A program made the translations under genes and the position numbers. Under the pieces are notes generated by a model. The model was given only the letters and a program-made list of their open reading frames with translations, had not been told where the DNA came from and did no database searches. Positions 3,595 to 64,000 of a stretch of DNA of 64,000 nt are shown one piece after another; position 1 is the first letter of the stretch, and each line of letters starts with the position of its first letter. Source of the DNA: Sipunculus nudus (taxonomy: Eukaryota > Annelida > Sipuncula > Golfingiida > Sipunculidae); the NCBI GenBank assembly GCA_026874595.1, contig CM049314.1:74414300-74478299 (forward strand), in the 5' to 3' direction.

Positions 3595-3744
3595 CAGACA
3601 AACAGGAGTGCCTGTTGCTTCCGAGATGGAATCCAGCGGCACAGCTACACTCGTAACCAACGCGAGCCGTGGCATCAGTGCAGCGCATGTCACACGTACC
3701 AGGATATTTACATGGCGACATAAGATCCACTCCCTTTCCACCTT
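3595..3744 (-). CDS. EGF-like domain exon of a secreted/adhesion protein
   Basis: A minus-strand exon of exactly 150 bp (50 codons), flanked by an acceptor (TTTTAG at 3750-3745) and a donor (TCTG|GTAGTA at 3594). It encodes one EGF-like module with cysteine order C-KYPGT-C-DMR-C-T, then GYECSCAAGFHL and a final C. Six cysteines and the G-Y/F-x-C spacing typical of EGF are present. The exon is symmetric, as expected for a shuffled module. Together with the downstream discoidin exon at 1746-1918 it suggests an EGF plus F5/8C protein, an architecture used in extracellular adhesion proteins of the EDIL3/MFGE8 type. Linking the two exons to one gene is inference, and no symbol is assigned. Confidence 0.75.
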
Positions 3745-3772
3745 CTAAAACTGAGCAAAGAAAAAAAACCTT

Positions 3773-12960: not shown

Positions 12961-13384
12961 TCTGCCAAATACCAAAGTGCATTCCGATCATCTAACACTG
13001 CAGTTTGTGTACACTTGTTTGACTTTCAGGGCAATTAAAAAAAGATCTTTAATGATGGTTGTGTGAAGTTTTGAAAAATAATTGCTTATCCAAGTGATAC
13101 CGAATTGCAGACGATTATATTTTGTGTTGTATGCGAGTGCAAATATTGTATGAATGACTGAACTTCGAGATATCCTTTGCAGGTGAACAATTAACATTAC
13201 TGCCAACATGCACAAGCCGTTGTCTGACGCGATTGTGTGACGAGTACACGCAAGTAACTAGAATATGGGTAGTCGACAAGCGACTATGTGTATCCGCCAA
13301 AATCAGAGTAGGACGTGTTAAGTGAGGCATAGACTGAGTGGCAAGGGGAAATAGAGTTACATGTGTTACATATTAGAATGGATG

Positions 13385-14215
13385 TCTGCCACGTAAACAT
13401 GATTGTAGGTGGCGCCACCTGTTATTTGAACGAGAAACTTTCCAAGATGTATACACATGCAAAATTTCAGGTTTAAAAGTCAAACCACTGCAAAGATATG
13501 AGTGATTTTATCCCACAGCAGGCAAACAGACGGACGCTGTGCAAAAATGGCTGCAGGTGGAGCCACCATTTTTGTGTTCGTTATAAAGCTATCCAAGGGC
13601 TACATTTGTGTAAAATTGTTTTACTTATTGGTCAAACGAGTCAGGAGATATAAGCATTAATGTCTGCAGCGTGAACGTGAATGAAGCTGGCACCACATGT
13701 CATAAAATCAAGAAAGCTATCCAGGATGTATACGCATGCCGAATTACAGGTAATTTGGTCAAACCACTGCAGAGATATGAGTGATTTTAACCCAAGGCAG
13801 ACAAACAGATGGACACTGTGCAAAAATGGCTGCAGGTGGCGCCACCATTTTGTGTAGGTTATTAAGCTATCAAAGGGCTAAATTTGTGTAAAAAAATTTT
13901 TCCTGATTGGTCGAACGGTCCCAGAGATATGAGCTTGGATGTCTGCAGCGTGAACGTGAATGTAGGTGGCGCGACCTGTCATCAAATTAAGAAAGCTATC
14001 TAGGATGTATACGCATGCCGAATTTCAGGTGAATTAGTCAAACCACTGCAGACTGCAGAGATATGAGTGATTTTAACCCAAGGCAGATGAACAGATGGAC
14101 ACTGTGCAAAAATGGCTGCAGGTGGCGCCACCATATTTTGTGTATGTTATAAAGCTACCCAAGTGCTATATTTGTACAAAAATTATTTCCTGATCGGTCA
14201 AATGGTTCCCGAGAT
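13385..14215. repeat. ~285-bp tandem repeat with GGTGGCGCCACC core
   Basis: Nearly three units. The phrase GTGCAAAAATGGCTGCAGG recurs near 13538, 13818 and 14107 (spacings about 280 and 289 bp). Each unit also has a second GGTGGCGCCACC-type palindrome, AAGCTATCC, a TGTATACGCATGCC-type phrase, AATTTCAGG and CAAACCACTGCAGAGATATGAG. No coding frame survives across the units. They share the 12-bp palindrome with the 125-bp and 335-bp repeats further right. Confidence 0.85.
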
Positions 14216-15640
14216 ATGTGGGTTTATGTGTTGAAGCAGACGCACAAACGGATGCTGGGCAGAGAGGAAAGGTAAGAGGTCAAGACCAATTGGCACCAAT
14301 TCATATGTGACCCGATGATTGGTGTAAGTTTCGAAAAAATCTGCCAGTAGTCTCAGAGGAGTTCTCCGGAAACGAACGCGGCGGTAGCGGCGGCGGCGGA
14401 ACCCGGTCAAAAACATAGTATCCGCAAAACTTCGTTTTGGCGGATACAATTAGTCGAGAAACTATCGCCACCCATTTGATATAACGTACCCTGCAGGACT
14501 TGTGTATCCTTGTAGAAAAATATATCGTGTCTTGATCCTTTACTCAACGTTGGTTTTTCATTTCAAATTCAGGTTCCAGTTAAAATTGAATACAAAGGAG
14601 TTTAATCGAAATCCAATGCCGTGCATGTTGCTTTGAGTGGCCCGATTAACCTCTGACTCATGACCTCTGCGTGTTTTGGAATTAACTTCCCCAAATCTGC
14701 GTAGCTGTGGAAACCGAAGCCGCAGGTCATATCCGTGGTCGATTCGACAGGTTTCATGCCTGTTGTTATTATAAGATCGCATTGACGTTTACCGCTCCCG
14801 ATACAAGGAACGTATTTTTTTTCCAGTCGTTTTAAATGAAGGTGAACAACACGTCAGGCGATATAAAAATTATCTGTGAATGAATCATTCGCATAAAGCG
14901 CGGACGTACGATACACACACGTATCAGAATTCTCGGTTAGTGGTTTTAGTAGCGAAAGTAGTCTGTGGAGGCGGGATAACTTGCATTTTATGTCATATAT
15001 ACCAGGGTATTATACAATTGTCCCCTAAAACTGCAACGATAAAGTAAAAGTTCATCTGACAGTGCAACCTGTTGATTACTGATGATTTGCAAAAAGTCAA
15101 TTGGAGCATTATTTCAACTGTAATTAGTTACATACCGCTTACATTGACAAACGCAGCATGGAGTTTGAAAGATGTCTTTATTGTTTTATTTCTATTATTT
15201 CATAGAAAACTTATTAATTATGACAAATAACAAACATCAAATAAACATGGTTTATTGAATGATACATCCATATACGTACCTGAATTCCACGGGAATTACC
15301 ATCGTTAGGGGACGGACCACAAACTTATACACAACAGAGTGGTGGCGGTTTCAAACCGGCATATGGACAAAATACGCCTTTATTCTTTTATTGATATTAT
15401 TTTAAAGAAAACATAATTTGTTAGAAATTACAAACACTAAGTGAATATATTTCATTGTATTATACATCAACATACGTACCTGAATTCGCGTCATCCGATC
15501 AGCATGGCCACCTGCATGGTCGGCCTTCACGGACACAGTCAGTCAATGTAATCCATACACTTGACCAATGATTCTGTTGTGTGCAACTAATATTGTTATT
15601 ATATTAGTTGATAAAGTTGCCGGTATCTTTAAGCTTGGCA
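14216..15640. other. No gene recognised
   Basis: I find no gene or named element. A GCGGCGG-rich patch lies at 14378-14400. Two similar sentences (GTACCTGAATTC preceded by TTTCATTG/TTTATTGAAT) near 15275 and 15475 indicate a diverged ~200-bp internal duplication. Confidence 0.4.
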
Positions 15641-22369: not shown

Positions 22370-25300
22370 TTTTTCAGATACTGGACCTTTTGTATCAGAT
22401 TTTTAATTATTTTAGAGGGTACTTTTGAGCCCAATAGTTCAGAAGATAAATGTCACAGGCACTCAAATTCAGGATTTCAATTATATTTTTATGGACCTCC
22501 GTGGGTGTAACGTTAGAAGATTTTAGGCCTAGGGGATACTATTAAAACTAACCGTGTTCTCAACATCTTCTTTTTAGCAAGTGGTTCACATAATATAGGT
22601 CATTATGACCTAAATTTAGGTTTCCATGGAGATGTGCCTTGAGCATCCCTGGATGTACAGTTATTTTTTTCCAGGTCTAACGGTTACCATTTGTGCCCTA
22701 TTATCGGACAGACTCCTTCATCTGAAGATCTCAAAAATAGGGGAAAAATGCGTAACAAGTGACCCATGGGTCATGACGCTAAGCCGACTGAAATGTTGAT
22801 AATATGTCCCTGAACAGACAATTAAGATAGGTGGCATCAGTGATCATGCATATTAGCTTAAGTTCATCAAGACCAATAAGCACAACATATTTGATGACAA
22901 TCAAACCAGCCTTTCATGAGGAATCTGGCAATTTGTGTGTATTTTGCATTATTTCTGGGGTACTCAAACATACCCTAAAACTCTGAGAATATAAGTCACT
23001 GTGACCCAATTTCAGGTTTCTTGAGAGAACTTTTAAGGAACTCTCAGGATGTCAAGTTAGAAGATTCTGGGCCCTATGGTTATGATTTGTGTCCTACTTT
23101 GGTATCAAATTTTCAGTTATTCTGGGGGGTACTTCTGAGCCCCACAGCTCGGACAATATGGGTGTCAGAGACCTAATTTCAGGTTTCTAAGGAGACTTTT
23201 CATGGGCCTCCCAGCATGTCTAGAAAAAAAATTCTAGGTCTAGTCGTTACGATATGTGCCTTATTAACAGATGATGGCATCTTTTAAGGTCTCAAAAAAG
23301 GAGAAAAAATCGAAAAATAAAGGTGGTGCCACCAGTCTGCAAAAACTGATGTAACACCCCATGATTAATATCCATGCAAAGAATCATGGTGACCATTGCA
23401 TTAGTTGTTCAGATATTTGAGCTTTTGTATCAAATTTTTCATTATTCTAGGGGTAATTCGGAGCCCCATAGCATAAATAATATGGGTTACAGAGACCTTA
23501 TTCAAGGTTTCCAAGAAGACTTTTCACGGACCTCTCCGGATGTAAAGTGAGAAGATTCAAGGTCCAGCTGTTACGATTTGTGCCCTCTTAACAGATGAAG
23601 GCATCTTTTGAGGTGTCAAAAAAATGAAAAAAAATCGTTAAAAAAATGAAAAAATACAGGTGGCACCACCAATCTGCAGTAACTGATGAAACACTCCATG
23701 ATCAATATACAAGCAAAGATTCATGGTGATCATTGCATTAGTTGGTCAGATATTTGAGCTTTTGTAAATATAGGTCACATGGCCTAATTTCCATTTTCAT
23801 GGAGATTGGTCTAAGAACTCCTCCTGGGATATATAATAAGAAGTTCCCAACCATACTAACGGTAACGATTATCGCCCTGTTAACGGACGAACTGCTTCAT
23901 CTGAAGGTCTCAAAAATAGATCGCAAAATATTAAAAAAAAGTGGCGCCACCAGTCTTCAGGAAATGTTGAAATAATCCATGAGCAATGTGCATGGAATAA
24001 ATCATGGCAATCAATTGTGATGCAGGCTGTTTATTATGTTTTTGTAATTATACCTTATTATATGTAAGACAAGCTGGTTCAGAGTTGTATATAGTTTGCT
24101 CAAGTATTTCATGGGCTGGTTTACGGTACAAAACTTCAAGAAATCGCCCAGAAAGCGCCCAGACGGAGTGTCTGGAACAAACGGACAGGTGGGCGTGGCC
24201 TGATAACAGGCACGGCCTGTGATTGGCGAGTCGCGCTGGCGAAACAGACTCTTTGTAGTGTGGGCTTGTGTCGTTTGTTCCCAGTGTGGCAAGTTAAAAC
24301 AAGTGACCCATAGGCCATGACGCTCAGCTGAATTCAAGGAATGTTGAACAATGAGCAAAATGACTGCCAGAGTGCAAAAAAATTCATGAATTTTGTGAAG
24401 AGTCCTTAGAAATGGGTTTCAGTGGGCTTTTGGGCAGATGAAGAACTTCATTTGAAGGTCTCATAAATAGAAAAAAAATTGCGTAATAATTTGAAAAAAA
24501 TAAAGGGAGTGGCACCAGTCTGCAGGAACTGATGAAACACTCCATGATCAATATATATCCAAAGAATCATGGCTATCAAGGCATTACTTATTCAGATACT
24601 GGAGCTTATGTTTGTATCAAATTTTAAATTATTCTTGGGGATATTTATGAGCCCTATAGCTCAGAGAATATGGGAAACAGAAACCTAATTTCAGGTTTAG
24701 AAGGAGATTTTTCATTAGTCTCCCTGGATGTGAAGTAAGAAGATTCTAGGTTCAGCAGTTACAGTTTGTGCAATGTTAACAGATGACCACTTCATTTGAA
24801 GGTCTCATAAATAGAGAAAATGCCTAAAAAATTGAAAAAATACAGGTGGCGCCACCAGTTTGCAGGAACTGATGGAACACTACATGATCAATATGCCTGC
24901 AAAGAATCATGGTGATCAATGCTGTAGTTATTCAGATACTTGAGCTTTTGTATCAAATTTTGCATTATTCTGGGGGGTACTTTGGAGCCCCATAGCTCCA
25001 AGGATATGGGTAACAGAGACCTAATTTCAGGTTTTCAATATTTTCATGGACCTCCCTGGATGTGAAGGTTGAAGATTCCAGGTCCAGTGGTTACAATTTG
25101 TGCCCTGTTAACAGATGACAGGTTCATTGCATGCCAAAAAAAAGAGAAAAAAATTTGTAAAAATTGGAAAAAAATATAGGTGGCACCACCAGTCTACAGA
25201 AAGTGATTGAACATCCCATGATCAATATTCATGCAAAGAATCATGGTGATCAATGCAGTAGTTATTCAGATACTTGAGCTTTTGTATCAAATTTTAATTA

Positions 25301-25954
25301 TTCTGAGGGGTACTTACTACAAAGGATATGGGTAACAGAGACCTAATTACATGTTTTCACAGAGCCTTTCATGGACCTCACTTGATGTCAAATTAGAAGA
25401 ATCTAGGTCAAGCGGTTACGATTTGTGCCCTGTAAACAGATTACAGCTTCTTTGAAGGTCTCAAAAATAAAGAAAAAAAAAATTCGTAAAAATTGGAAAA
25501 AATACAGGTGGCGCCACCAGTTTGCAGGAACTGATGGAACACTCCATTATCAATATGTCTGCAAAGAATCATGGAGATCAATGCATTGTTATTCAGATAC
25601 TGGAGCTTTTGTATCAAATTTTTAATTATTCTGAGGGGTACTTACAACGAGGGATATGGGTAACAGAGACCTAATTACATGTTTTCACAGAGACTTTTCA
25701 TGGACCTCACTTGATGTCAAGTTAGAAGAATCTAGGTCAAGCGGTAACGATTTGTGCCCTGTTAACAGATGACAGCTTCTTTGAAGGTCTCAAAAATAAA
25801 GAAAAAAAAATTCCCCTAAAGCTCTGTGACCTTGATAAGTAGGTCAAGACCACCCATCTTTGAACTTGACCAAGATTTGACTAAGGTTCCAGGTCCAGTG
25901 GTTACGATTTGTGCCCTGTTAACAGATGACAGGTTCATTGCAGGTCTAAAACAA
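22370..25954 (+). repeat. C array: ~335-bp satellite, main block
   Basis: Imperfect head-to-tail units. The core GGTGGCGCCACCAGTCTGC or a near variant lies at about 23326, 23660, 23940, 24505, 24843, 25179 and 25505; intact neighbours are 326-338 bp apart. Each unit then has CTGATGAAACACTCCATGAT, AAGAATCATGGTGATCAA, GATACTTGAGCTTTTGTATC, a GGGGTACTT phrase, GGATATGGGTAACAGAGACC, TTTTCATGGACCTCCCTGG, and ends with ACGATTTGTGCCCTGTTAAC and an A-rich GAAAAAAATTCG tract. No conserved reading frame. Two opening motifs of A type (22757, 24300) lie inside, so the array is a mosaic. Confidence 0.85.
24140..24290. mobile_element. Short foldback insert in the C array
   Basis: A locally GC-rich ~150-bp insert. 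GGAACAAACG near 24174-24183 is complemented by CGTTTGTTCC near 24271-24280, with flanking similarity (GTCTG / CCCAG). The C-unit text is interrupted here. Probably a small MITE-like foldback; no duplication was identified. Confidence 0.4.
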
Positions 25955-32622: not shown

Positions 32623-33431
32623 GACTTTTCATGGACCTCCCTGGATGTTCCAGGTCCAGTGGTTACGATTTGTGCCCTGTTAACAGAGGACAGTTTCATT
32701 GCAGGTCTAAAAAAAAGAGAAAAAAAAATTCGTAAAATTGGAAAAAATATAGGTGGCGCCACCAGTCTGCAGGAAGTGATGGAACATCCCATGATCAATA
32801 TTCATGCAAAGAATCATGGTGATCAATGCAGTAGTTATTCAGATACTAGAGCTTTCGTATCAAATTTTGCATTATTCTTGGGGGCACTTTGGAGCGCCAT
32901 GGCTCCAAGGATATGGGTAACAGAGACCTAATTTCAAGATTTCAAGGAGATTTTTCATGGACCTCCCTGGATGTTAAGTTTGAAGATTCCAAGTCCAGTG
33001 GTTACGATATGTGCCCTGTTAACAGATGACAGTTTCATTGCAGATCTGAAAAAAAGAGAAAAAAATTCGAAAAAATTGGAAAAAATACAGGTGGCGCCAC
33101 CAGTCTGCAGGAAGTGATGGAACATCCAATGATCAATATTCATGCAAAGAATCATGGTGATCAATGCAGTGGTTATTCAGATACTTGAGCTTTTGTATCA
33201 AATTTTGCATTATTCTGGGGGGTACTTTGGAGCGCCATAGCTCAAAGGATATGGGTAACAGAGACCTAATTTCAGGTTTTCAAGGAGATTTTTCATGGAC
33301 CTCCCTGGATGTCAAGTGAGAAGATTCCAGGTCCAGCGGTTATGATTTGGGCCCTGTTAACGGACGGCCGGCCGGACGGACGGACGACGGGTGATCGCTA
33401 TCGCTCAGATGACTTTCAGTTTGTGAGCTAA
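32623..33431 (+). repeat. C array, second block, with hairpin-type tail
   Basis: Two full C units (cores at about 32750 and 33090, 340 bp apart) and one partial unit. The last unit ends in a GGCCGGCCGGACGGACGG run and a degraded hairpin (GCTCAGATGACTTTCAG, then GTGAGCTA), the same tail as the A modules. Confidence 0.8.
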
Positions 33432-48119: not shown

Positions 48120-50560
48120 AGCTCAGCTGACTATACGTTATCTGAGCTATAGTCATTGTCCATTGTCCGTCGTCTGTCCGTCCGTTAGATTGGCACGTTT
48201 TGAAATCATTAGACCTATGAATCAAAAATTTGGCATACTGTTAGATGTCCCCAAAATCTCCTACCAAACCGGAAACTGAGTCACTGCGACTTCATTCCTT
48301 CGAGAAATTAAGGAAAAACCTCAGGTTTCCATTAAAAACCTATTATCACACTTCAGGACTGCCTTATATCAAAACCACTGATCTGTCTGTTTTTCTTTCT
48401 TAATTTTTACCAGAAGTACTGGTATTCTCCTATATATTTTCCATATACATGCTGGAAATTAAGTCTGTTAAGTGTAATTTCTTCAAGTTGTGGTCCCGAA
48501 TATAATGGACTTTGTAAATTACAAATTCAGGAAATTTACTCGCCTAACATGAAAATTTTGGAAGCTAGAGACCTTTCGTTCAAGTATATAACTTTGTTTA
48601 AATTAAGATTCAATTGTATACCCAAGATTAGATCTGAATTATTAAATTTTTTAAAATTATTAGCATAAAAATAAAAGCAGTACCTTCAATTTTGACCATG
48701 GCATTTTTTTTCTTTTCCCTGTGAGTACTGTTGATTAAATTTTCACAGCATGTAAACTTTAGTATTTAATTTGTTTAAACCTGAAATTAGAAAATAAAAG
48801 CTCAAAAATTAGGCTAATAATTGAATTTTTTTTTGTTCAGGCTCTTATTATAGTCACGTGCTTTGTCCAGATGCAGGCAGCCCACTCCTGGTCACTGGAA
48901 GTTAGCTATGCCAGGGTTCCTGATTTGTTACAGGTCACTGGGGGAGATCCCCTGCTGTGACAGGTGTACAGTTATTCTCATATCAACTCCTACCTCCTTC
49001 CACCCCCCCCCCCCCCCCCACCCACCGACCCTATCCACCAAGTGTTATGCAGTAATTGTTATTGTTTGCCATGTATTTCCTCAACTGTAATGCTGTTTCC
49101 ACTCCAATATACATAACTTTCCTTGAATGAGTAATTCATTGAGTAATCCAGAAGAAGCCATTTGGGATAATGTAGCCTTTTTAAAGAAATCAATTTCCTT
49201 TTAAATGATTTTAAAATATTAAAATTAAAATACATAAAGGCACAATTAAAAATTGTGACATCTGATTCAAGTATTATTTTTAGATATTTATTGTTTTGCA
49301 AATTTAAAAGATATATTTGTGTGGTAAAAAAATAAATATGCATTTGTATGCATGATGTGGGGTCATCTGACAAGATTGAGAAATATGATGATGCAATTTA
49401 GAATTATGAATTAACTTTTATATTCAGATATATATGTTATATTGGGAATGTATAGAAATATATACTTAAAATAAAAAAAAAAATTGATGTGATAAAAAAA
49501 AATGAGGATCTTATACAAACATTTGTTCATTATTTTCCTGCCTCAGCAGAATTGGAGATCAGGCTTTGTTTGCCCTGTATGTATATGCAGAAGTGTTGTT
49601 AATCCCCCCCTACTATGGATTCCTTTGCACCTGTGCAAGTGTGTAAAATTTATTTAATTTAAAAAACAATTGGATTAGAAAAAATTAAGATCTAATTGAA
49701 ACACATTCTTGCTTCAGGAGAATGGAACATAAAGTGATCAGCTCTGTATGTCCATCATCTCTCTGTTATCATTAAATATATATTTATTATGATATTTTTC
49801 CTATAAGCACTGTGATAACTTTCATATGCTGTATGTGTATGGATTTAAGCTATTAAAGTCTGAAATTTGAAAACAACTTATATACTCAATTGTGTAATAT
49901 TTCAGATGTTAAACTTTAAAAAATTGATATAATAAAAAAATTAAGAAATAATTGAAACATATATTATCAGCTTTGTTTGTCTACCAGTCTGTCTGTCCTT
50001 TTTTAAAATATAAGTAATTGTGAATGAACTTTTTTATTCTGTAAGCTTTGTTGAATTAAGTGAAAATCCTATGTATATACACTTTGATAATACACAGATG
50101 TTGTAACTCCGGTCATACCATCCCCACACCACCACCAAGTCACCTTACACCTGTGGACTGGGAACATAAGTTATAGTTCAACTGTATACATTTTATAAAA
50201 TAAAAAATACATATATTTAATAATATAAAAAATATTAATAAAAAAATAGACCCAATCGAACAAATGTGTAAACTACTGTACTGTCATCAATTTGTCAAAA
50301 AGCCAACCAATGATTATGGTAATAATATACATCTTATGTTCACAAACTGCTCACATGCTTTAATTTTAACATTAGAAAACACATGGTCAGGTCACAAAAT
50401 ATTATTTGCAACAATTTCTTACTCATCAATACAAACCAATCATATCATCCAGCCATGGTCTATATTACCTCTTCTTATCAGACATTACCTCCATTTTCAG
50501 ATTTTTACCTCAAGGTCAACTTCAGCTGAGCACTGTGACTGATGGATCCCTTGTTGTTTA
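48120..50560 (-). mobile_element. A module, inverted copy nested in the CACTA-like element
   Basis: On the minus strand it opens near 50560 (ACAACAAGGGATCCATCAGT, GTGCTCAGCTGA). It closes near 48120 with a GGACGGACGGACAGACGACGG run followed by a hairpin (arms around 48120-48151). A poly-C tract at 49004-49020 corresponds to the poly-G tract of the other copies. At 2.4 kb it is longer than copies 2 and 3, with extra AT-rich text. Non-coding. Confidence 0.6.
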
Positions 50561-51002
50561 TACAGAGGTTCCAGATGGATTTTGAGAGTGACATGTATGT
50601 GACTTTTTATAAATCTGCCCTCTTACATCTTTATATGTATAATAAAGCTGATGTAATGGTCTCTTTTAAACCTGTTTCTGACTCATCATTAACATTTTAA
50701 ACAGTTTTAAATGCATTTCATGGAGAAAAATGACTAATGGACACATTTAACTTTTAAATAGTCCCTTTATCAATCACTCCATATGACCACTCATGTGTTA
50801 TGGTATATATATCTACAAGGAAGGTTATCAAACCAGTTTGCTTCAAAATCTTGACCACTGCATGATCAGCAGGATCATGATTTTCATAATGCCTGTGGAT
50901 ATTCCATGAAATTTGTTTATTGGTCGAGAAACTAAATTTTTCGTAGTAAATCTGTTATTGTCTTACAAGTTGACATTCTGTTATATTCCTGGTTTCTCTC
51001 AG

Positions 51003-51116
51003 GTGCCATTAGTGCTATGATGCTTCGTTTACTGCCAAAACTGATTCCAGCACAGAGGAAGAAATGCTTAGCCCACCATAGCAGAAGCAAAGGCAGCATT
51101 CATTGATGTTCAGAAG
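51003..51116 (+). pseudogene. Exon-like segment, unrecognised product
   Basis: Bounded by TTTCTCTCAG and AGAAG|GTATAT. It reads AISAMMLRLLPKLIPAQRKK, CLAHH and, after a shift, EAKAAFIDVQK. I do not recognise the family. It is the third plus-strand exon-like piece in the CACTA-like element. Confidence 0.35.
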
Positions 51117-51235
51117 GTATATACTGATTTAGGCTTTTAGATTTCTTACAATTCTAGAAATAAGAGCTATCATTCAATTGAGAATAATCGATCGATATTG
51201 TGTTAAAGGGAATATTTATGTAGCACCATTTTTAG

Positions 51236-51560
51236 CTCAGATGACTACCTGTATATACGTGATGTCAGATATAGCTATGGCCATTTGTCCATTATCGGTC
51301 TGGTTGTCCAGCTCGATCTCCGTTTACATGCCACATTTCAAAACCACTGGACCAGTGGATCCAAAATTTGACATCCAGGTAGATGTCCTTATTTTCTAAC
51401 AAACCAGAATATTGGTCACTGTGACTACATTTTTTTTGGAGAAATTAAGGAGAAACCTCCATTTTTCAGTAAAAGCCAATTGTTGCACTTTAGTGTCAAA
51501 AATTGGGTCAAAATTGCACAATTTGTAGCAGTTATTTACCCAAATAAAATGTATCTTGTG
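51236..51560 (-). repeat. A module, inverted 3'-end fragment
   Basis: It begins TTTTTAGCTCAGATGACT, a degraded hairpin arm. It continues with the reverse complement of the A-module 3' text (GGAGAAATTAAGGAGAAACC, CCATTTTTCAGTAAAAGCC). The opening end is not found. Confidence 0.5.
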
Positions 51561-51616
51561 AAAACATCAGGAAAGATATCGACTTACTTGACATGATAGA
51601 TGTTGAAGATAAGAGT

Positions 51617-51782
51617 TGTTTTCAAGCGTATAACAGATTTTTTTATTGAAAAAATTTCAAACATATAACAGATTTTTTATAAAAAAAATTGTTCAAGCAT
51701 ATAACAGATTTTTTTAAATTTTGTTCAAGCATATAACAGATTTATATATTTTTTTCTAGCATATAACAGATTTTTATAATCT
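51617..51782. repeat. ~40-bp tandem repeat, about five copies
   Basis: The word CATATAACAGATTTTT recurs five times between T/A-rich spacers with TTCAAGC. Confidence 0.85.
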
Positions 51783-52550
51783 TTTTTAGTTATTGTCATA
51801 AAGGTAAAATCAGACCTTTAAATTTTGTCCAACCTTGACCATTGCACATTTGCTTTCCTGTCAGCACTGTTGACATTTTGTATGTACAAAATGCAAAGAT
51901 TAAAACTATTATAATATGAAAATTTGATAGCAATTTGCCAAAAACTGTAGGACATAGTGAACTTTATTCTGTGAAATACGGGCCGAAAACATAATTTTGA
52001 GCAGCCTGAAAGACTGACAGGGCATATATTTAACCATTAGGCCATTCATACACAATATCTAGGGAGGTCTCCTTTGAATCCTGAAGTTTGGACACTATGA
52101 CTAATGTTCTGTGAACTCTAAGAAAGTACATGGTTTTAGCATTGAAATTCAGATAAGCAAAACAAATATGTTTGGAACTTTCTAACTTTGAAATTTTGGA
52201 AATTGGGCAAATCTCCATCACCTGAAATCATGTTATGATGACCAATATTCTGTTGTATTTCTGTATTTCTTCTTGTATTATTGTACAATTGCAAGATATG
52301 CACAAAGTCTGAATTCTGTTACAGTACATATTTAATCAATAATGAGTACATTTATACTTGTAGGCCTACCTCGTTCAGACTAATTTAATATCCATTGATG
52401 ATAGGTAGTCTATCGTCATCATGACAAACAGTAAACATGTAATTGCATGTTTTGTCACTGTTTAGGTCTCGCCCTCTTGTACTTCCTTGTGCATGAAGTA
52501 TGCCTATATCACAAGCAGTTATAAGGGGTTGGATTAAAATTGCGTGTGTG

Positions 52551-52652
<102 letters not shown>

Positions 52653-53554
52653 GAACAGTATTAACACCAACACATATTTTCATCTTTTATTATTATTGTG
52701 AAATTTGATGTATTTTCAGATCTAGAAATTCAGTTTCTAAATGTTTGATGAAGATCAACAGTGACTGAGTTCAGTGTTGCTGTGTTTCTCTGACACCATG
52801 ATGCATGCAGGCATATGGAATGAAGACAGTCATCAGGGAACAGTATTGACTGTAGACTCTTGTTTCATCATTTTATGAGTCAGGTATCCATGACACTGCA
52901 CTTCCAGAGTACTTCAAACATATGTTAATCATTTTCCAGCTTCAGCAGAAAGGGAGATAAAGTGATTAACTCTGTTTGTCTACCTGTCTATCTGTCCATT
53001 TTTAAATTATCAGTAATAGTGAATTCAATTTTATGAAATTCAATTTTTAGCATTGGACTCTAGAATATCTTACTTGTATATATATGTTTTTAAATGGAGG
53101 CTTGTGTCGCCAGTTGTGCAGTTACAAGTTGTGTACTGCATGCATGATTTAATTATATGTTACATTGTTATTTTACTGGACTTATTAAACAATTATTTTT
53201 ATAAATATAATGCTCTTGTTTTGTGTCTACCATTTCAGACAAAAGGTTGATGTATGAATGCAAGCTGGTTATCAGAGCACTTGTACTGCCACACAAAGTG
53301 ATATTTCCAATTTCATTACATTTCTACAATCAGAGGAACAGCAGTATCATGCAAAGTGCAAATTGTGTTTTATTTTGTTCATTTGACTGGCTGAGGAATA
53401 TTCCTTGACATTACTTGGTACAAAGGTATATTTAATTCTTTTTCACCATGATATTTGAGCACACTTCATCACAATTTTATGCAATTTTTTTTTTATGTTA
53501 GTTGTTTTCAGGCAATTGTGGCTGAATTCAACTGCATTTTGTAACCATTTCATA

Positions 53555-53869
53555 TTTTGCTAGGGTATTCAGTTGGTTCCTTCTTAACCAATTTTCTTGG
53601 TTGATTTTAACCAATATGGTCATCTGAATCAAATTGGTTGATTCAGTATTGGTTGTTTTCAACCATTATTGTTGGTTGATTTCAACCAATCACATGGTTG
53701 ATTTCAACCAGTCACATGGTTGATTTCAACCAAAAAAATTGGTTGCAAAATCAACCAATAGGGATCGGTTGAAATCAACCGGTTAATTGGTTGGACACAT
53801 ATCAACCGAGAAGACCGGTTGATTTCAACCAATTTTTTGGTTGAATTTAACCGATCCATTTTAAGAGTG
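53555..53869. repeat. Right subterminal GGTTGA/TCAACC array and terminal inverted repeat
   Basis: More than fifteen copies of GGTTGA or TCAACC in ~300 bp. They form many small palindromes such as GGTTGATTTCAACC, and the block ends with AGAGTG at 53864-53869. The array is denser here than at the left end. Confidence 0.75.
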
Positions 53870-54004
53870 TACTGAACTGCTGTCCTGCAGGTGTATTTCT
53901 GCGACAAGGCATGATTTACACACTATGACATATGCAAATATATGCAGATTTTTTTTTGTGAAATAGCGTATGATTTAAGTTTAAATGCATTTTAAAAAGG
54001 TCAG

Positions 54005-54140
54005 TCATTCATAATATAACTTCATTTAGCATGCAATTTACTTTTGGAAAAGGATCCATAAAGAGAACAACAAAGTTATGTTTGTTCCCATGTTGCATAT
54101 CGGATATATGCATACCTATGAATATTCATTCCACACTGCT
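54005..54140 (+). repeat. Left arm of a ~130-bp inverted repeat
   Basis: 54018-54054 (37 bp) is identical to the reverse complement of 63917-63953. Similarity continues for about 90 bp inward (CCATAAAGAGAA, GTTTGTT, CATGTTG, ATGAATATTCATT) and, more weakly, about 40 bp outward. It may be the left terminal repeat of a ~10-kb element. Confidence 0.8.
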
Positions 54141-55047
54141 GTAATATAATGTTAATACATCAGCATTTAATAGTTTGTTATATAATTTTAAGACGAGGGT
54201 ATCTGTTATATTCACAATTTTATTGGCAGTAGATTCCAAACAGTAAAATGGGGTTGTTGAATGGTCCATGTTGCCTTGTAGCCAACCTTTATTAATTTAT
54301 CATGAGAAAATGATTTAGGTAGAACTCGCTCTATGGCCAAACTCATTATAGGGACAACGATTTTGTGCAGTAAAACTTTACATACAAAGGAATAAAGAAA
54401 TGATAACCTAGAACAAATTTATTGCAAGTATATCATGATATTAATATTGATTCTGCAATGTGTGCTGATATGTTAATTATATAATCAGATGTCGTTTATT
54501 CCTTACATTATTAACATATTATCAGTTTTCAAGTCATCGATTTTGGGGCTCGTCATCCCATCACATTAAAAATGACATACATGAACACATTTATTCCATC
54601 ACAGAAAATATATTATAGAAAAGGTCAATGAAGATCTGGTAATGAACAGTTCATTTTCCATAAATGAGCATTTCTTGTGAAAATTTTCATTAGACTTTCT
54701 CAGACTTTTTTTTGGTCTAAAATCCCAGTTCCTTTTTTTTCCTTTTTGCAGTAAAGGTTAAATACAAATGTATTTATGTACATTAAACAACTGAATATGT
54801 TTTTGTAGGAATGCAAATGAATCATTTTGCAATATTTTTTAATAAAGAATGAAGATATTTGTTGAATTTAATGTCCATACTGCGCAATGATCATATTTAA
54901 TTGTGAACATTAGACCATATAATATGTCATAAACATCTGTCCGAGAATGTACATGCTATATACATAATCAAATCTGATGCCACATTAAGTTTTGAAATAA
55001 AAAAATCAGGAAAGTCTAGGAACTCCTGATTATTTGAAAAATTAAAT

Positions 55048-56995
55048 TCATTCACTGTCATCATATGTATTACGACAGATATTTGTAACCTTTCTGCAGT
55101 TGCACGCTTCGATGCATTCCATGCGGAATGTCCTGCAGCTGCAGCGTTGGCTGGGGCACCCCTTCGTACATCCACATGAAATGATCTCCCTGCAGGCTTT
55201 TGGCATGGTCGGGAGGGAAAGTAACTGTGGCACTAAATGCCCATCCAGATACATCCATCCCATCTCCGTTACAGGAGGAAGGATGGGATTTTGCAGATGT
55301 GCCTGGTTCCAAACACTTGATTGGTAGTGTGCACGCATGATATGGAACCTGGCTGCATCTGAGATTGGTGGCAGACTTTCCTGTGCACGACCTGCTCAAA
55401 GCATTTTGACACGTGCCTCGTTGCATGTGGAAACCTCGGGCACACGATACAACTTGCAGATGAATTTTTCCGCTGAGTGTAAAGTGTCATCTGTGAGAGC
55501 ACCCTTCCCCAGGCCACTTAGATCTGTATGATGTCCTAGGAAAAAATCCCATGCTTTTTTCTTTCCGTGGCCACTGAATTGAGACACACTATCACAACCA
55601 GTGATGGCATGGAATCCAAGTAGTGTGTTTACTTGATTCTTACAGAGCAACCTGCGAATGTCGTGTACTGGGATATATTTTGGAGCGGTCGAAGTACCGG
55701 CTTTCAGGTAGAGTCGTGTACATCGTATCTTATCGAAGTGTGCCACAAGCAGGAGAAGCACGTCTGTATCAGGTCCGGACACAACTAAAGTGTCCACATT
55801 AGCATGAGTACAATGTAAAATCAGCCTGGTATCAGCCTCTTCAATGTCAGCCCTAAGAGATGAGACATCTAGGTCTGGATCAGATGACTTGACTGTTGTT
55901 GCTTCATGAAACCCCCCTGATACTACAAGTACTTGTTTATCCGTAGGGGTTAGTTCAGTGAGATGTTGTGAAAGGAGCAGTGCCAGATCTGCTTTATTTT
56001 CCTCAAGTGAAAGAAAGCTGTACCAATCCGATGGGAGAGGAACAGACTCAGCTTCAATTTTACGACGGATTGGACGGTAGCGTTGCCTCCGTTTGATCCT
56101 TGTTCCTGTCTTCATTGAATCGCTTTGGTATCTGTCGAAGACGACATCAATTCTGTTGTATTTTGATCCCATCTTCGTCACAGTGTTAGCGAACATCTTG
56201 GCATATTCACCAAAAGTCCTAATGTCAGATGGCTTTCCTAGTGCCATCACAAGTGTTTGGCCATCTATGATCAGGCAGCTAGGTGCATTGATTTCAATAT
56301 TTGAAGGTGTTTGAACGTCATTTGTCAGTATGGAAACTAACACTGATTTGTTGGTGGAATGTAAACTGCCGTTAGTTGTGGCCAAAGATAAAGGCACTGT
56401 TATTAGTTCATGTTGAAGTATATCTTCCAGGTACACCTTGCGTCCTGCTTTGTATGCTGTTATAAGCCTCTGAAGTATGCTCCTGTCCACTTTAATGGTA
56501 GTGTGTTTGTCCTTGGACAGCTGCTCAACTGCGTACAATGAGGAAAAGGTCTTTGCTTTGTTCTTCTGAATTGGTGTTTTTAGATCTAGGTGTTGGTCAC
56601 TGCCTGGTTGCTCACAGAGTGTTCTGCTTGCAAATACTTTCATTTTTTCTAGTCCAAGACTTTCTTGGTTTAGCAATGATTCTTGAATCTAAGGGGTGAC
56701 CACATCCTTGTTGATCATGTTCTTCAATGAACCACTGCCATCTGTAAATACATCACACTGTTCCAAAGCTTTAACTATCCTGCTTTCGTCACAGTCATCT
56801 TTCTCCATCCTGCTTTTCGTGCATTCGTTGTGTGTGCATTCATCATCTCCATTGTCTGTAGTCAGTTTTAGCATTGCTTTTGTCTGATATGTTATGACTG
56901 TTCTCAGATTGAATGACAGTGTCCATCTTCTGAGAGCAGAGGCTACTCTTGTTATCCCTACTCACAGCAGTTACAAATGGTCCAGTCTGCTATCT
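55048..56995 (-). pseudogene. C-terminal part: FEN1/XPG-like nuclease domain and Tesmin/TSO1-like CXC domain
   Basis: The core frame 56676-55396 is 426 codons. In it I see CLIIDGQT (Asp138), VVFDRYQ (Asp181), EEADTR (Glu279/280, Asp282), SGPDTDVLLLL (Asp303/305) and AITGCDSVSQFSGHGKKKA (Asp362). These match in order and spacing the metal-binding acids and helix-3-turn-helix of FEN1/XPG nucleases. In-frame TGA at 55396-55398 separates a continuing frame to 55048 with a CXC domain: SCGCTKGC, RCSCRTF, CIEACNCR. Upstream, in-frame TAG at 56689-56691 separates a third piece (SALRRWTLSFNLRTV, DECTHNEC). The frame is otherwise intact for about 650 codons, so the stops are recent, read through, or consensus errors. 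Confidence 0.8.
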
Positions 56996-57637
56996 TTAAT
57001 GACCTGTCTAGCCTGGTCCCCGGCTCACTGGGGTATCTGTTTCACCAAAGTGCTGGTCAGGGCAGTTGCCTAGCAACAGGGGTGCATCAAAATGGCTGAT
57101 ATGAGGTGATAGAGGGATCCCACACTGATTTAAGTCCATTTGTACAGGTTGTTGACAGGAACATCTCACTGGAATGTGTCCCATGGGGAAGGTCATTAAT
57201 CTAGCTGTCAAATGAGTGTAAACAGTGCTGGGATGGGAGGGCACTGGTCACAAAAGTGCTGGCTCTTTGTGTTGCTAGGTGTTCAGACAGGGGTAACGCA
57301 TAACACTGAATGTTATTTCAAAATTTTCAATGATTGTTTTTTTAAAAGATTAGTTGTTTAATTTTTTGATAGCAGATATTTTATATCAGGGAGCACACCA
57401 AATTTTGTTGTAATTTTTTGTTCCTGTATACTTGCAGTTTACTTTGTGTGTGTATCAGTATTTGCTGATGAAGATATTGTAATATGGCTCGGCTATGGCA
57501 GACATGCCTTCTATATATATATGTTGTATTTGTCCTAAAATGACCTTAATGAGTTCGCAAATGTATAAATTAATTCAAGTATGACATATTGGAATACTGA
57601 ATGAATATATAATACATCTTATGACGTTGCTGTCAAG

Positions 57638-58376
57638 ATGGATGGATCTTTAGATTTTCATTTGAAATCTTTGTCACAACTATGCAGAATTTGTGGGAAG
57701 AAATCCCTAACATATAATCAAAAACCTAAATACAAGCTTTTCCCTTGCTCTGAAAATAACAGAGAATATTAGATGTCTTTGGCATAGATGTTACAAAAGA
57801 TCAAATTGACACCCACCCACCTAACATATGTAGACTATGTTACTTCAAAATATTTAATCAGAAAAAAAAATGTTGTTAATGCAACCTCAAAACAGGTTGA
57901 AAACTATCAGCTTGCCAAAGAGATCAATGACAAATGGTTGCCACATAAGAGAGGGTCTGCAGAATGTTTCACATGCACCCAGTTTATGCAACAATTGAAA
58001 AAAGGCAGGCCAGTTAAACCAAAGAGAGGAGCCCCTAAACATAATCCGGGAGATCTTTTGTTTGATCACAGGAAAGACAATATACTTGATTTTAGTACAC
58101 ATGCAAATAATGTCAAATTTAGCAATGCTGAAATAACTGACATGAGTGAACAGCAGCAGAAGTTATATATCTGCCCTATTTGTTGTCAAACTTTTCCTAC
58201 ACATTGTGTGTGGGCCATGTGGGCATTATTTCTGTTCAGAATGTCTGAGTGACAAATATTGTCAGGCTCTTTCAAACAGCACCGACTGTCCAGTATGCAG
58301 TGTTAGTTTGAATTATTCTTCAATTAAATCAGTTGATATAACACGGAAGAGGAAAAATGATAATATACTGATCTAA
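57638..58376 (+). pseudogene. RAG1 N-terminal-region-like protein with RING finger
   Basis: ATG at 57638 opens MDGSLDFHLKSLSQLCRICG, then FPCSENN. After a -1 shift near 57765 the text is ILDVFGIDVTKDQ, IDTHPPNICRLCYF. After a shift in the A9 run near 57861-57869 it is KEINDKWLPHKRG, AECFTCTQ, KRGAPKH. Then comes a C3HC4 RING: YICPICCQTF and, after a shift in a GTGTGT run near 58210, GPCGHYFCSECL, DCPVC. Stop at 58374-58376. RAG1 has the same series (LCRICG; FRIDV, IHP, FCxxC; WxPH, CxxC; RING C3HC4) in its non-core N-terminal part. The nonamer-binding and DDE core regions are absent. The gene lies antisense inside the gap of the FEN/CXC gene. Molluscan N-RAG-TP transposons encode such proteins. 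Confidence 0.8.
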
Positions 58377-58384
58377 TGAACTGT

Positions 58385-59375
58385 CAGCTTATCAGTTCAA
58401 TAGTTTAGTGCTTAGTGTTTACTATGTGTTTAGAACTAACGCTAGCAGTGGGCTGACCAGATTAGGGCGTAAAGGTTGTTGTTTGTGCTCAACAAATGCT
58501 CTGCAGATTCGAGAAACAGTAAATTAGATCTGCTTTTTACTAGGTTGCAATATCTTTGTTCTTTAAATATGCTATTGATTGAGGAGAGTTATTACTTCTC
58601 ATTCTGTGATTCTGTGTTTGTGTTGGTTTTCAGATATTTAGGAATCAATTATTAGTTTTCAGTTTGTTTCCTATTAAAAGAAGGTATTGTTCAGCCGGAA
58701 TCATGTACATTATCATTTTATTATCATATTTCATATTATGCAAGTAAATTACATCATAATAATTGTGAACTAAGTCTCCTGTAAACATCTAGTACGTGTT
58801 TTTACTCAGTGTGTTATTTTCATAACATTTAAGCTTGTATCAAGGAAAAATAATTCATGTAATTCGTGAAAAAAATAGGCAAGAAGGTCTACTTCATGCT
58901 TAAATAACATGTTTAAAAAAAAATACAACAATAGTCTGTCAGAATATTTAAGTTATATATTATGTGAATATTTTATAGTATGAGTTTGGACTTAATGAAA
59001 AAACAAGATTATTAGCAATAGACCATTTTGCATGAACAAGTGTAACCAGATCCGGCACTTGCATTGGATGTAATATACACAATTACTCTCAGTACTGTGA
59101 TACAAGATAACTCTTAGCTCCCCATTCTGATCAAAGTGTAACTTACACACAGATGTAGCTGACAAATTCAGCATTTAGCACATATATTAATTGTTAAGAT
59201 TACTTAATAAATATAAAATATAACAAAGGAAACACATGTGGAATTATGTTGTGAATGAGGTGAAAACCCGGCTTATCTAGCCACTGGTGTGAAACATGAT
59301 ACGCATGCTGGTAGCCTGGGGCTCACTGACCCGGCCTGCTTGCACTGATGAGGCAGCTGTAGCATTAAAGCTCCC
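58385..59375. other. AT-rich spacer within the gap of the FEN/CXC gene
   Basis: No coding wording on either strand. The phrase AATAGACCATTTTGCAT at 59020 resembles the ends of the 5.04-7.87-kb element. I searched for the missing middle of the FEN/CXC protein here and did not find it. Confidence 0.4.
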
Positions 59376-59380
59376 TGTGG

Positions 59381-60530
59381 CTAACTGCTGTGTACTATGC
59401 CTCCACTCTTTTTACCTATAGCATTCAGCCATTCTGTACTGGACAGGATGAATGCCATGTCAGTAGCATGTGCATTCTGTGCTGAGTGACCTTCATCAGC
59501 TGAAGGTAAGAAGCAGTTGGTTTTAACTGCACCATTGAATGGCTGATTTGCAACTCCTCTTTTTGTCTCAGAGATGATGTCAGTCATCACCTCAGGGACA
59601 TGCAATGTCCCTGTCTTAGAACAAATATCAATGCCGCTGAAAAGTCCCCCTTCAGGTGGACCACGCTGCCAAGCAGCCACTTGAGTGGCATTGAAAGTCC
59701 CATTTCCGTCTAGTGTATACTCATTAATGTCTACATTGTCCGCCGAGAAATGTACAAAACGATTCTTTACTAGATTTTGGGGGACAACAGCTCCGATATC
59801 ATCCATGGTTTCTAACATTTTCTTTGCTAGTGAAGTGTCAAGATTTATTCTTCGCGGTAACTCATTATATGACCTGCTTGGTGAAACATGTTAACTAACT
59901 CCTTGGATCTTGTTGCCTGGTGAAGGGCGCTGGCCAATTCGATATGCTTGGGAGTCAGGAACTTGTCTCCATGCACTGTATACATAAGATCTTGGGCGAC
60001 ACTGATGACTCTTTGTTGACGTCTGCCGGCGACCTTATCATCTTCTAATTCGTCATAATCTAGTACATGCTGACCGCCTAGCAATAAGTTGAGGAATATA
60101 TACAGATTATTGGGTATGCAGTTTATGGCACTGTCTTCACTAAGGTTTTTTACATTTGATTTTGGATGTGAAAGCATTTCTCTGCGATCTGCAATGCCGC
60201 ATGAACCATAGACAGGAACATGTTCTGCTCACACTTATCTTGACACTTGTCTGAAGGAAGACATGTATCGATAAGTTCATTCTCTTCTCTTACAGCTGAA
60301 GATACAGGGATATGCTGGAATTTGGATGGTACCAATACGGTGCGAGGTTCATTCCATGCATGATCACTCAATACTATGATTTCATACATTCCCTCTAGAA
60401 GAACAGCTAGTTTTTCCTTGAATGTGCTCCTCCGACTCATAAACGATGGTGGTATAACTATATGAGCCTCACTAGCTATTGAGCAGTATCTGTCCCACAC
60501 ATCAGTAAGATCTAATATATCAGATCGCTC
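59381..60530 (-). pseudogene. Central part of the FEN/CXC protein
   Basis: Three overlapping frames join. 60500-60150 (WDRYCSIASEAHIVIPPSF, FKEKLAVLLEGMYEI, CQDKCEQN) is followed after a shift near 60155-60170 by 60177-59845 (NLSEDSAINCIPNNLYIF, RRQQRVISVAQDLMY). After another shift near 59870 comes RSYNELPRRINLD, then 59818-59381 (RFVHFSADNVDINEYTLDG, GTFNATQVAAWQRG). Before 60500 the protein text moves to another frame (MALVLLCQELE), because a run of G at 60583-60593 (poly-C in the gene) changes frame. The phrase ADNVD..TLDG is the most conserved signature of this family. Function unknown. Confidence 0.75.
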
Positions 60531-60540
60531 TGCTGATCAT

Positions 60541-60837
60541 TCAAGCTCTTGGCAAAGCAGAACTAATGCCATCTCCGTGGCCTGGGGGGGGGGACATATC
60601 TCGTTTCGCCCTACGTTCATACTTGATAAAGCAGCTGTGGTGATACTTTCCATGAGCAAATGAAAGATCGTCTACACAAGCTAGTCGAACTCTAAGGAAA
60701 TGATCGATCTGTGACGCTTCTAATATTCTGCTTCTAACGTTTTTTTCCTGAATGGTGTGAAGTGTTTCCTTTGTATTCTGTTGGCAGAATATACACCTGC
60801 CAATCAATTGGATGTATTTTGCTTCGTAAAATGACAT
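60541..60837 (-). pseudogene. Second N-terminal zinc-binding module of the FEN/CXC protein
   Basis: Reads RCIFCQQNTKETLHTI, then FLRVRLACVDDLSFAH and GKYHHSCFIKYERRAKRD. The pattern CxxC ... YHxxC ... Y is a recurrent N-terminal module of this family. The preceding text in another frame (AELKVQSSSASTSKDHQQN) links it to the first module. Confidence 0.7.
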
Positions 60838-60892
60838 TCTGCTGATGGTCTTTTGATGTGGAGGCAGATGAACTTTGAACTTTTAATTCAGC

Positions 60893-61129
60893 TTACTTTA
60901 ACCTTTCAATTTTATTTTTATTCATGTAATTGGATCGACAGTCTTTATGCCATGAGAATGTTCCAGGTTCAGCCAGCCTATCGGCTGCATCCCGAAAATT
61001 ATCTCACTGTAATTTCATCCGTAATTGTCTAACAGTGTCCACTGACTGGAGACTATCACTGCTAACAGTATTGAGTTTTTGTTTGTTGTCATTCTGGCAT
61101 ATAAAGCATAACTGCCGGTCGTTTGACAT
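60893..61129 (-). pseudogene. First N-terminal zinc-binding module of the FEN/CXC protein
   Basis: ATG at 61129-61127 opens MSNDRQLCFICQNDNKQKL. The frame continues through an in-frame TGA at 61006-61004 to DNFRDAADRLAEPG, FSWHKDCRSNYMNKNKI, ERLK and a TAA at 60895-60893. The CxxC ... WHKxC ... Y pattern parallels the second module. This is the most upstream recognisable coding text, so the ATG is the likely original start. Confidence 0.65.
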
Positions 61130-61369
61130 TGGCCGTTTCTCGTCTGTTCTGTACCTCCATCAATGTTTTCATTCACCACCACATAATCTGCAAACGAAAG
61201 AGACTTAACTAGAAATCTCTGGCATTGATGATTGTTTTCCCTACACCTAAATTCCCTAAATTTAAGCCGTTAAGTCATTAAATATCTTTCCTGCTTTAAA
61301 TTATATTTAAGCCCGTAACATATACAAATACACAGTATGACCAAAATTCCTGACATAAAAAAAAACTAA

Positions 61370-61646
61370 TTGAAAACTGAAGAACACAAAACCAATGTTA
61401 ATTCATCTTGAAGTGTGACATTGGCTTTTTACTGAAAAACGGAGGTGTTTGCTTAATTTTTCATAAAAAATGAAATAACATTGATCTACTTTTAGGTCTG
61501 GTCAAAGTTTTTTAAACTTAAAAACGGTATGCAAACTTTAAATTCTGATACTATAACATGGGCTTTGTGGCCTATTTGATGGATGGAAGGACAGACGACG
61601 GTAAAAGGGTCAATATAGCACATATGACTTATAGTCAGCAGAGCTA
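61370..61646 (+). repeat. A module, 3'-end fragment
   Basis: Contains TTGAAGTGTGACATTGGC, AAAACGGAGGTGTTTGC, a GGACAGACGACGG run and a degraded hairpin at 61617-61646 (ACTTATAGTCAGCAGAGCTA). At about 61726 TTAGGTGGCACCACCAGT, the core of the C family, follows. Beyond it, 61750-62530 has no supported feature. Confidence 0.6.
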
Positions 61647-62537
61647 ACAAATGTTTTACCTAATTGCCCATTGTCTTTCAGTGATATATATAGAAATTGT
61701 AAGCTCAAATTACAGGAAGAGATTTAGGTGGCACCACCAGTATAAATTTTTTGATAACCCATCCCAACATTTTGTCATTGAAAATTTTAGGTGATTAAAA
61801 TAAATCATAGTAAAGTTAATTTTGAATAAACTTCATTGTGTCCTATATCTTTGCATATGGCATATAAACAATGTTAAACAAAAACGGTATATTATCAAAG
61901 TACCTCAAGGTAAACATTGGGTTTATATTTCCGTATTCATAAATTATAGCACAGCTGGGTGACAACTTAACGTGTCCAAACAGTCACGGTGACCTTTAAG
62001 TATAAGAAGGCCAAGCATAGTCGAAGGAGGGTTTTTAAATCCTTTAAATCCATATTATATGACCCTCCGTGAAAACCACTTAACATTCAGTTTGTGTTGT
62101 ATTGGCTCATCCGCCACAGCTTACTCTGCAATATTTATATGGTGCAGGGATGAAAATGTGGCAGTTCTTGGTACAATTTGATTACATTTAGGCAAGGATT
62201 GAATGCATGGTTCTGGATCGATTCTTAAACAGACATATTAGTTACCATTTGTGTATGACTGTCCACTCACAGGTATATATATTGTAGAGGCTCTGCAATA
62301 TCCAGCATTGTTATTTCTTCCTTTCCTGTATAAAAAAACATAGTGCGGAAAAGAACTAGGGAAAGAGCTGTTAAAATTTAATAATTTTACAAAAAGCAAA
62401 TCTTTTAACAATCATGTTACTGGCGTATTGTAGTTCATTCATATTTATCATAAATGTATGTAACAAGTGATTTATATTGAGGAGCGGTATGAGCAATAAA
62501 TATATTTACTGGGCAACATTTGACTCCCCTCCCCATA

Positions 62538-62553
62538 TGTGTATGTATGTATG

Positions 62554-62630
<77 letters not shown>

Positions 62631-62637
62631 CGAGAGC
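62538..62637. repeat. (TATG)n-(TA)n-(GA)n compound microsatellite
   Basis: A short TATG tract, about 34 bp of TA, then about 45 bp of GA. Open frames here are low-complexity artefacts. Confidence 0.95.
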
Positions 62638-62639
62638 AA

Positions 62640-63830
62640 ATGTAAAAAAACATTAAATATAGTGTTCCAACAAACCAACAAATGAGTCAATAAATGTTAG
62701 TTTACACATATTGAACTTGCCAATAGTTGATGAGCAAAAGTATGGTCCACAAGACCGCCCCCAACCACCTATCCCTAGATATACTCATGATTGATGGTGT
62801 TTTACTTTACAATTATATATCAAGAAATATTTAAAATCAACTATTATATGAATTTAAAAATAATTTATTTTTGTTGATTTTCCAGTGTTTACCGTGCAGT
62901 GCATATTATCCGAATACCACTTATCCAAAAAAGGCTTGTATCACAAATGTAGTGCGCCTATAAGACTGGGTATCAAAGACAATTCACAAATAGTTAATCA
63001 GGACTTCCATGCCGTGGGGTTTTAATAACTATGACAAATAAACAAGATTTTGTTTGTCTAAAGTGTCAATTATTTTTTAATCTGTTTGATCCAGTAAACT
63101 TTCCATCACATATATTTATCCAAATGGATAAACAGAAATTGGACAGAACGTAATATTACTATTTATGGATATTCCTTAGTTTATCCACAAAGTAAGCGTT
63201 GTTTGGGGCAATGAATATTTCAACAAAATATATAATTAAAAAGCTTACCTTAATCTCATGCTTTAAACTTCTTATTCTCTATATCTTCACTTGACAACCT
63301 GTTTTTCTTGTCCCGATGATGTGGCATGATGGTGTGAAGATGTCATGTCATGATGATGTGTAAGGGGGCTGTTACAGTAATACTTAGATATCACAATAGT
63401 GATGACATCATAAGGGATTATGACATCACAAAATGTTGACAAACACGTTGTTGATTTCATGTGTATATGTTTATTATAAAAATGGTGATGTCACAGTACT
63501 TTACAAGCATTATAAGACACTCTGGCATTACACAAATAAATTGTTTCATAATAGTGTCATTAGTTGCACTGTAGCTGCCTTTATGAAAATTAATTATGTG
63601 AATAATTTCCTTTACTACTTATATATATTCTATATATTTGAACTGACACATTAAGGTAATAGAATAGTATAATTTTTTGTAATATAAAAGCATATTCTCT
63701 TCTAAAGCTTTTACAATGCACTACTACGGGACTTTATTGAGAAAGGTTATTGTTATTTGAAAATGTTAAGAATAGCTTATACAGAAATTAGCCAGTTACA
63801 GAAATAATCACTTTTCTTGAAAGGAGGAAT
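62640..63830. other. No gene recognised
   Basis: AT-rich. A patch at 63310-63440 repeats ATGATGTG / GATGACATCA phrases. No gene or named element is seen. Confidence 0.4.
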
Positions 63831-63836
63831 AAATAT

Positions 63837-63995
63837 GTGTTAATGAATATTCATGGTACGTTAATATTAGATACACAACATGATAACAAACTTAACTTTA
63901 TTATTCTCTTTATGGGTCCTTTTCCAAAAGTAAATTGCATGCTAAATGAAGTTTTATTATGAGTGATGAAACTGTTTAATATTTGTTTAAACATA
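63837..63995 (-). repeat. Right arm of the ~130-bp inverted repeat
   Basis: Inverted partner of 54005-54140. The identical 37-bp core is 63917-63953. Weak similarity runs to the window edge, so the true outer end may lie beyond 64000. Confidence 0.8.
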
Positions 63996-64000
63996 AACGT

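Follow-up and report, generated by a model that had tools for sequence, protein, structure and literature searches.

The N-RAG-TP element of Aplysia encodes a protein resembling the N-terminal part of RAG1 but lacking the core, according to the second-hand descriptions in the excerpted text of PMC8355894 and PMC2996935, and the RAG1 N-terminal-like protein of this element is likewise mentioned at second hand in the excerpt of PMC13337447. Kapitonov and Koonin equate the Chapa domain with a truncated N-terminal part of RAG1, and the excerpted sections of their paper (PMC4411706) furthermore state that Chapa is followed by a RING in two subgroups of Chapaev and that TransibSU transposases carry Chapa without a RING. 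Martin et al. report, in the portion of PMC7204232 used here, that most of the protostome RAG1L proteins newly found by them have the three zinc motifs, and the mollusc RAG1L proteins are said there to keep the RING dimerisation domain as well. The combination of Chapa, or the RAG1 N-terminal region, with a RING is thus in print, and what is seen at the locus described below was in this respect already known.

The coding sequence and its frame breaks

The locus lies in the window, i.e. the whole stretch of 64,000 nucleotides of Sipunculus nudus DNA that was analysed, and consists of a coding sequence on the + strand (57638..58376) in which a RAG1 N-terminal-like zinc region (CND, or 'Chapa') is joined to a C3HC4 RING and which is interrupted by three frame breaks. 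An ATG at 57638, the first in-frame ATG downstream of a stop in a stop-to-stop frame analysis, and a stop codon at 58374-58376 enclose the zinc region and the RING only. When read through with X at the breaks, the four open pieces, which occupy three frames, give a protein of about 250 residues, and LCRICG, FGIDV, THPPNICRLC, WLPH, CFTC and the C3HC4 RING follow each other in that order before a short K/R-rich tail. This motif series had been proposed in an earlier note on the same DNA, and its place, its order, its exact coordinates and the three frameshifts are all confirmed.

The first piece (57638..57772, +) ends in an in-frame stop and carries motif C1, LCRICG, which aligns with C110/C113 of mouse RAG1, and the second (57766..57861, +), recognised by alignment and tblastn, carries ILDVFGIDV...THPPNICRLC (C2), aligned with mouse FRIDV...IHPTEFCHDC (C175/C178). 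The third (57866..58252, +), recognised by its open frame and by alignment, comprises WLPH...CFTC, the basic stretch KKGRPVKPKRG, a linker and the first RING pair CPIC, and the fourth (58146..58376, +), whose RING family matches are below cut-off, comprises the remainder of the RING (CGPCGHYFCSEC and CPVC), the lysine/arginine-rich tail and the stop. Four stop-bounded open stretches, namely 57605-57769 with C1 (LCRICG), 57760-57876 with FGIDV and THPPNICRLC, 57788-58249 with WLPH, CFTC and CPIC, and 58146-58373 with CGPCGHYFCSEC and CPVC, overlap one another and hence imply three frame breaks, which the stop positions confine to 57760-57769, 57788-57876 and 58146-58249. By homology, the second break falls at a run of A near 57862 and the third close to a run rich in GT, at about 58200. 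Runs of this type are prone to slippage mutation as well as to assembly error, so that from the assembled sequence decay and sequencing error are indistinguishable for these last two breaks. As it reads here, this copy of the coding sequence cannot give rise to the full protein.

Homology to the RAG1 N-terminal region upstream of the RING

The part upstream of the RING is homologous to the non-core N-terminal region of RAG1 and has its motifs in the RAG1 order. The read-through with X at the breaks matches PF12560 (RAG1 importin binding) with 29.0 bits and an E-value of 9.9e-7, the curated cut-off being 23.3 bits, and the match extends over residues 5-132 of the read-through and positions 91-219 of the profile. 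The first piece alone (57635-57772) matches the same family under the cut-off (E 0.0012, 18.9 bits), and the third piece alone matched no Pfam family. In a PDB search at E <= 10 with the part upstream of the RING, the sole match was RAG1, chain 21wb, with an E-value of 0.0023 (0.013 for the single aligned stretch), a chain that we take to be from mouse. The numbering of its cysteines is consistent with that given for mouse in the excerpt of PMC3124419. When every Cys and His was held in place and the rest was shuffled, PF12560 was found at E <= 1 in none of nine shuffles. In pairwise comparison by BLOSUM62 local alignment with gap costs 11/1, the CND part scores 87 against mouse RAG1, a value reached by 0 of 1000 Cys/His-keeping shuffles (median 31, highest 81), and when this was repeated with gap costs 8/1 the score was 106 against 74 for the highest shuffle. 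The likeness to the zinc motifs of the RAG1 N-terminal region claimed in the earlier note is therefore borne out by a profile match above cut-off, by the PDB match and by the shuffles, and these same three lines of support exclude the case, raised there as a possible refutation, of a generic RING with nothing RAG1-like upstream. That the locus might be a piece of vertebrate RAG1 itself was likewise considered and is rejected on account of the identity with mouse RAG1 of just 25% in the alignment.

Column by column, the read-through has in common with the CND of RAG1 (mouse 87-217) the succession of CRICG, FxIDV, HPxxxCxxC, WxPH and a third CxxC, followed, as in RAG1, by a basic stretch. All three CxxC pairs are present, as are C110/113, C175/178 and C210/213 in mouse, and five of the six cysteines fall in aligned columns; the C1 and C2 pairs and the histidines of HP and WxPH are all aligned, whereas the third CxxC lies three residues farther from the WxPH histidine than does C210/C213 in mouse RAG1, so that just one cysteine of this pair is aligned. 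The locus furthermore differs from RAG1 in that the spacing between C1 and C2 is about 12 residues shorter, a figure to be read with the arbitrary X at the break in mind, in that the spacing between C2 and C3 is about 11 residues longer, and in that the RAG1 leader of about 100 residues is absent before the CND-like part. The mouse CND (87-217) binds two zinc ions and prefers double-stranded DNA, it contributes together with the neighbouring region to nuclear localisation, and mouse RAG1 mutants of the C110/113, C175/178 and C210/213 pairs are heavily proteolysed, as stated in the excerpted text of PMC3124419. By analogy, the corresponding residues of the Sipunculus nudus coding sequence may bind zinc.

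The RING

All eight zinc ligands of the C3HC4 pattern are present, the pattern being completed across the third frame break, and as in the zinc dimerisation domain of RAG1 the RING is placed after the CND. The RING of RAG1 is an E3 ligase according to the excerpt of PMC3124419. No RING family exceeds its curated cut-off in Pfam when the read-through is used (best 22.9 bits as against 27.9), and the best three RING families for the fourth piece, with E-values of 1.5e-4 to 3.8e-4, are all under their cut-offs. In another PDB search the RINGs of RNF4, TRIM proteins and BRCA1 come first among the best 60 of 86 sequences at E <= 1, and these best 60 of 86 include a single RAG1 entry, 21wb, whose match lies upstream of the RING. 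Against the RING region of mouse RAG1 the RING scores 41, which was reached by 509 of 1000 Cys/His-keeping and by 85 of 1000 full shuffles (474 and 72 of 1000, respectively, with gap costs 8/1 and the score obtained with them). Since the score is no better than that of shuffles, the RING cannot be called that of RAG1 from these comparisons; a RING is however short, and the shuffle result is no proof of an origin separate from the RAG1 RING either. Beyond this shuffle-level likeness, the locus departs from the RAG1 zinc dimerisation domain in lacking zinc finger A, since Pfam finds no zf-RAG1 (PF10426) after the RING although PF10426 is found in the mouse RAG1 control.

Surroundings of the coding sequence

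The coding sequence is held in an AT-rich segment (57300..59249) with a GC content of 0.318 as compared to 0.438 in the rest of 56000-60800, and this segment, which is the best placement in the segmentation (log-likelihood gain of 35), may be the extent of an inserted unit. Broken open frames on the - strand are listed on either side of it, to the left at 55070..56961 with ...PDTDVLLLL...FHAITGCD... and a cysteine-rich tail, and to the right at 59381..60882. We presume these two sets of frames to be a single gene that was split by the segment, and if so, the unit would be about 2 kb long and leave little room for a transposase. Proteins of the ...FHAITGCD... type occur in animal genomes, and the order of motifs is presumably FEN1/PIN-like. 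The minus-strand frames at 55070-56961 and 59381-60882 look like mobile-element proteins, but none of the libraries gave a match to them. For 55396-56688 (-), no reliable relative was found in Pfam, in PDB or in a literature search for the HAITGCD motif, and the four pattern matches among viral contigs yielded no confirmed one.

Neither the RAG core, the nonamer-binding domain (NBD), Transib nor RAG2 is listed by Pfam in the + frames of 50000-64000 or the - frames of 54500-63501, and none of them is listed by PDB comparison of the + frames of 50000-63999, all of these being insensitive scans of long frames. Indeed, one of the Pfam scans gives PF12560 at an E-value of only 0.031, another, whose frames include the coding sequence, lists no family at all, and the PDB scans of long frames list RNF4 and not RAG1, so that broken or distant remains of a core could be missed. 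The statement in the earlier note that RAG core and nonamer-binding domain are absent thus holds to the extent that none is recognised nearby, but it is weakened by the insensitivity of the long-frame scans.

Signs of mobility and search for relatives

Panchin and Moroz reportedly found in 2008 that the N-RAG-TP of Aplysia has RSS-like terminal inverted repeats. Such ends were not found around the present coding sequence, which is in this respect unlike N-RAG-TP, and 229 of 500 and 244 of 500 shuffles did at least as well as the best RSS-like candidates. Inverted repeats and target duplications did not rise above shuffles either (the best combined TIR-plus-TSD score was reached by two of six), and no second copy of the coding sequence exists within the window. 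As a possible target duplication, an ACGCAT hexamer at 57296 and 59301 was rejected by eye, since there are no matching inverted ends. The earlier note had called the product a mobile protein, a description that finds no backing in TIRs, TSDs or RSS-like ends above shuffles, and we infer mobility from the known behaviour of comparable genes.

Searches for relatives gave 13 and 39 pattern matches in viral contigs and 102 in prokaryote contigs, none of which was confirmed, and no match in phage records. In the protein database none of 51 candidates reached E <= 0.01 and none of 544 reached E <= 0.1. Such an outcome in the viral, prokaryote, phage and protein collections is unsurprising if animal DNA is scarce in them.

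What the locus may be

The explanation that we tentatively favour, at slightly under an even chance, is a decayed stand-alone gene for a CND and a RING, probably from an N-RAG-TP-like mobile element that forms a unit of some 2 kb within another mobile gene. The element would thus carry a small gene for the non-core N-terminal zinc domain of RAG1 (CND, Chapa in transposons), a C3HC4 RING and then a stop, and the unit would have been inserted within the other mobile gene. As in N-RAG-TP, by its second-hand description, there is a RAG1 N-terminal-like protein, here with a stop after the RING, and no core is listed in the admittedly insensitive scans; membership in this group is plausible. The intact protein would be expected to enter the nucleus and to bind DNA through the CND and the basic stretch, the RING might dimerise it and ubiquitylate either the protein itself or a partner, and it could act together with a transposase encoded elsewhere, of the Transib, RAG-like or Chapaev kind.

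The chief rival, which the earlier note does not name, is that the locus represents the 5' part of a Chapaev transposon, with Chapa and RING at the N terminus of a transposase whose catalytic part was lost or lies in deleted exons. The same two domains do occur in the same order in the Chapa and RING subgroups of Chapaev, going by the description in the excerpt of PMC4411706 alone, but here the frame ends with a stop directly after the RING, no transposase part is recognised and no transposase family is listed nearby, which is a weak negative given the insensitive scans, and the segment sits between other broken coding pieces with little room to spare; we therefore regard this origin as rather unlikely. 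A 5' remnant of an invertebrate RAG-like (RAG1L/RAG2L) transposon, cut before the nonamer-binding domain, has in its favour the zinc motifs of most newly found protostome RAG1L and the RING of mollusc RAG1L in the excerpt of PMC7204232, yet it appears distinctly improbable, since zinc finger A (PF10426) does not follow the RING, the RING is generic and succeeded by a stop, and neither core nor RAG2 was matched, albeit in insensitive scans.

Slightly less probable still is that the locus derives, by processing or duplication, from a host gene that combined a RAG1-N-like domain with a RING, rather than being a mobile element's own gene. The intron-free frame, the lack of TIRs and the single copy in the window all agree with such an origin, as does an A-rich stretch (about 59195-59235) close to the right edge of the AT-rich segment, but this stretch does not form a clean A tail, and the search for a target duplication gave nothing convincing. 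Finally, the notion that all this reflects chance spacing of Cys and His together with a generic RING draws on the RING being no better than Cys/His-keeping shuffles. It is nonetheless hardly credible, since the upstream match lies above the curated cut-off of PF12560 and scores higher than all 1000 shuffles; a chance origin of the motifs that precede the RING, which the earlier note had allowed for as a second way of being refuted, is accordingly rejected.

Bearing on the origin of RAG1

The origin of the front third of RAG1 is disputed. On one account it arose when elements like N-RAG-TP were joined to Transib (excerpt of PMC8355894), and on the other it was inherited from an ancient Chapaev/Transib ancestor in which Chapa and a RING were already present (excerpt of PMC4411706). 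The present locus, in which a clear CND and a RING are enclosed by their own start and stop and no core is recognised, is a further data point for this question. The idea of assembly from separate elements, put forward in the earlier note, is one of these two standing accounts, but the copy by itself chooses neither. With intact relatives, separate trees of the CND and of the RING could be compared with RAG1, RAG1L and Chapaev, and this could decide between the accounts. It is furthermore conceivable, if clearly unlikely, that stand-alone CND-RING genes form a family in this genome, one that has no transposase and whose RING is of another origin than that of RAG1. If that were true, the CND would be a module that elements exchanged and repeatedly joined to RINGs, and the front end of RAG1 would be one such outcome and not an inherited part of a transposase.

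Other features of the window

Rfam and tRNA scans of the 64,000 nucleotides gave no matches. A reverse transcriptase fragment (RVT_1, E 5.9e-14) is found at 10515-11120 on the + strand, and tandem arrays, their units about 280-340 bases long, occur at 13370-14217, 23097-23766, 24446-25811 and 32648-33361, the units of the arrays at 24446 and 32648 having AAAATACAGGTGGCGCCACCAGTCT in common. An EGF-like fragment at 3413-3784 on the - strand (cEGF, E 1.1e-4, under the cut-off) might be an exon from the gene of an extracellular animal protein.
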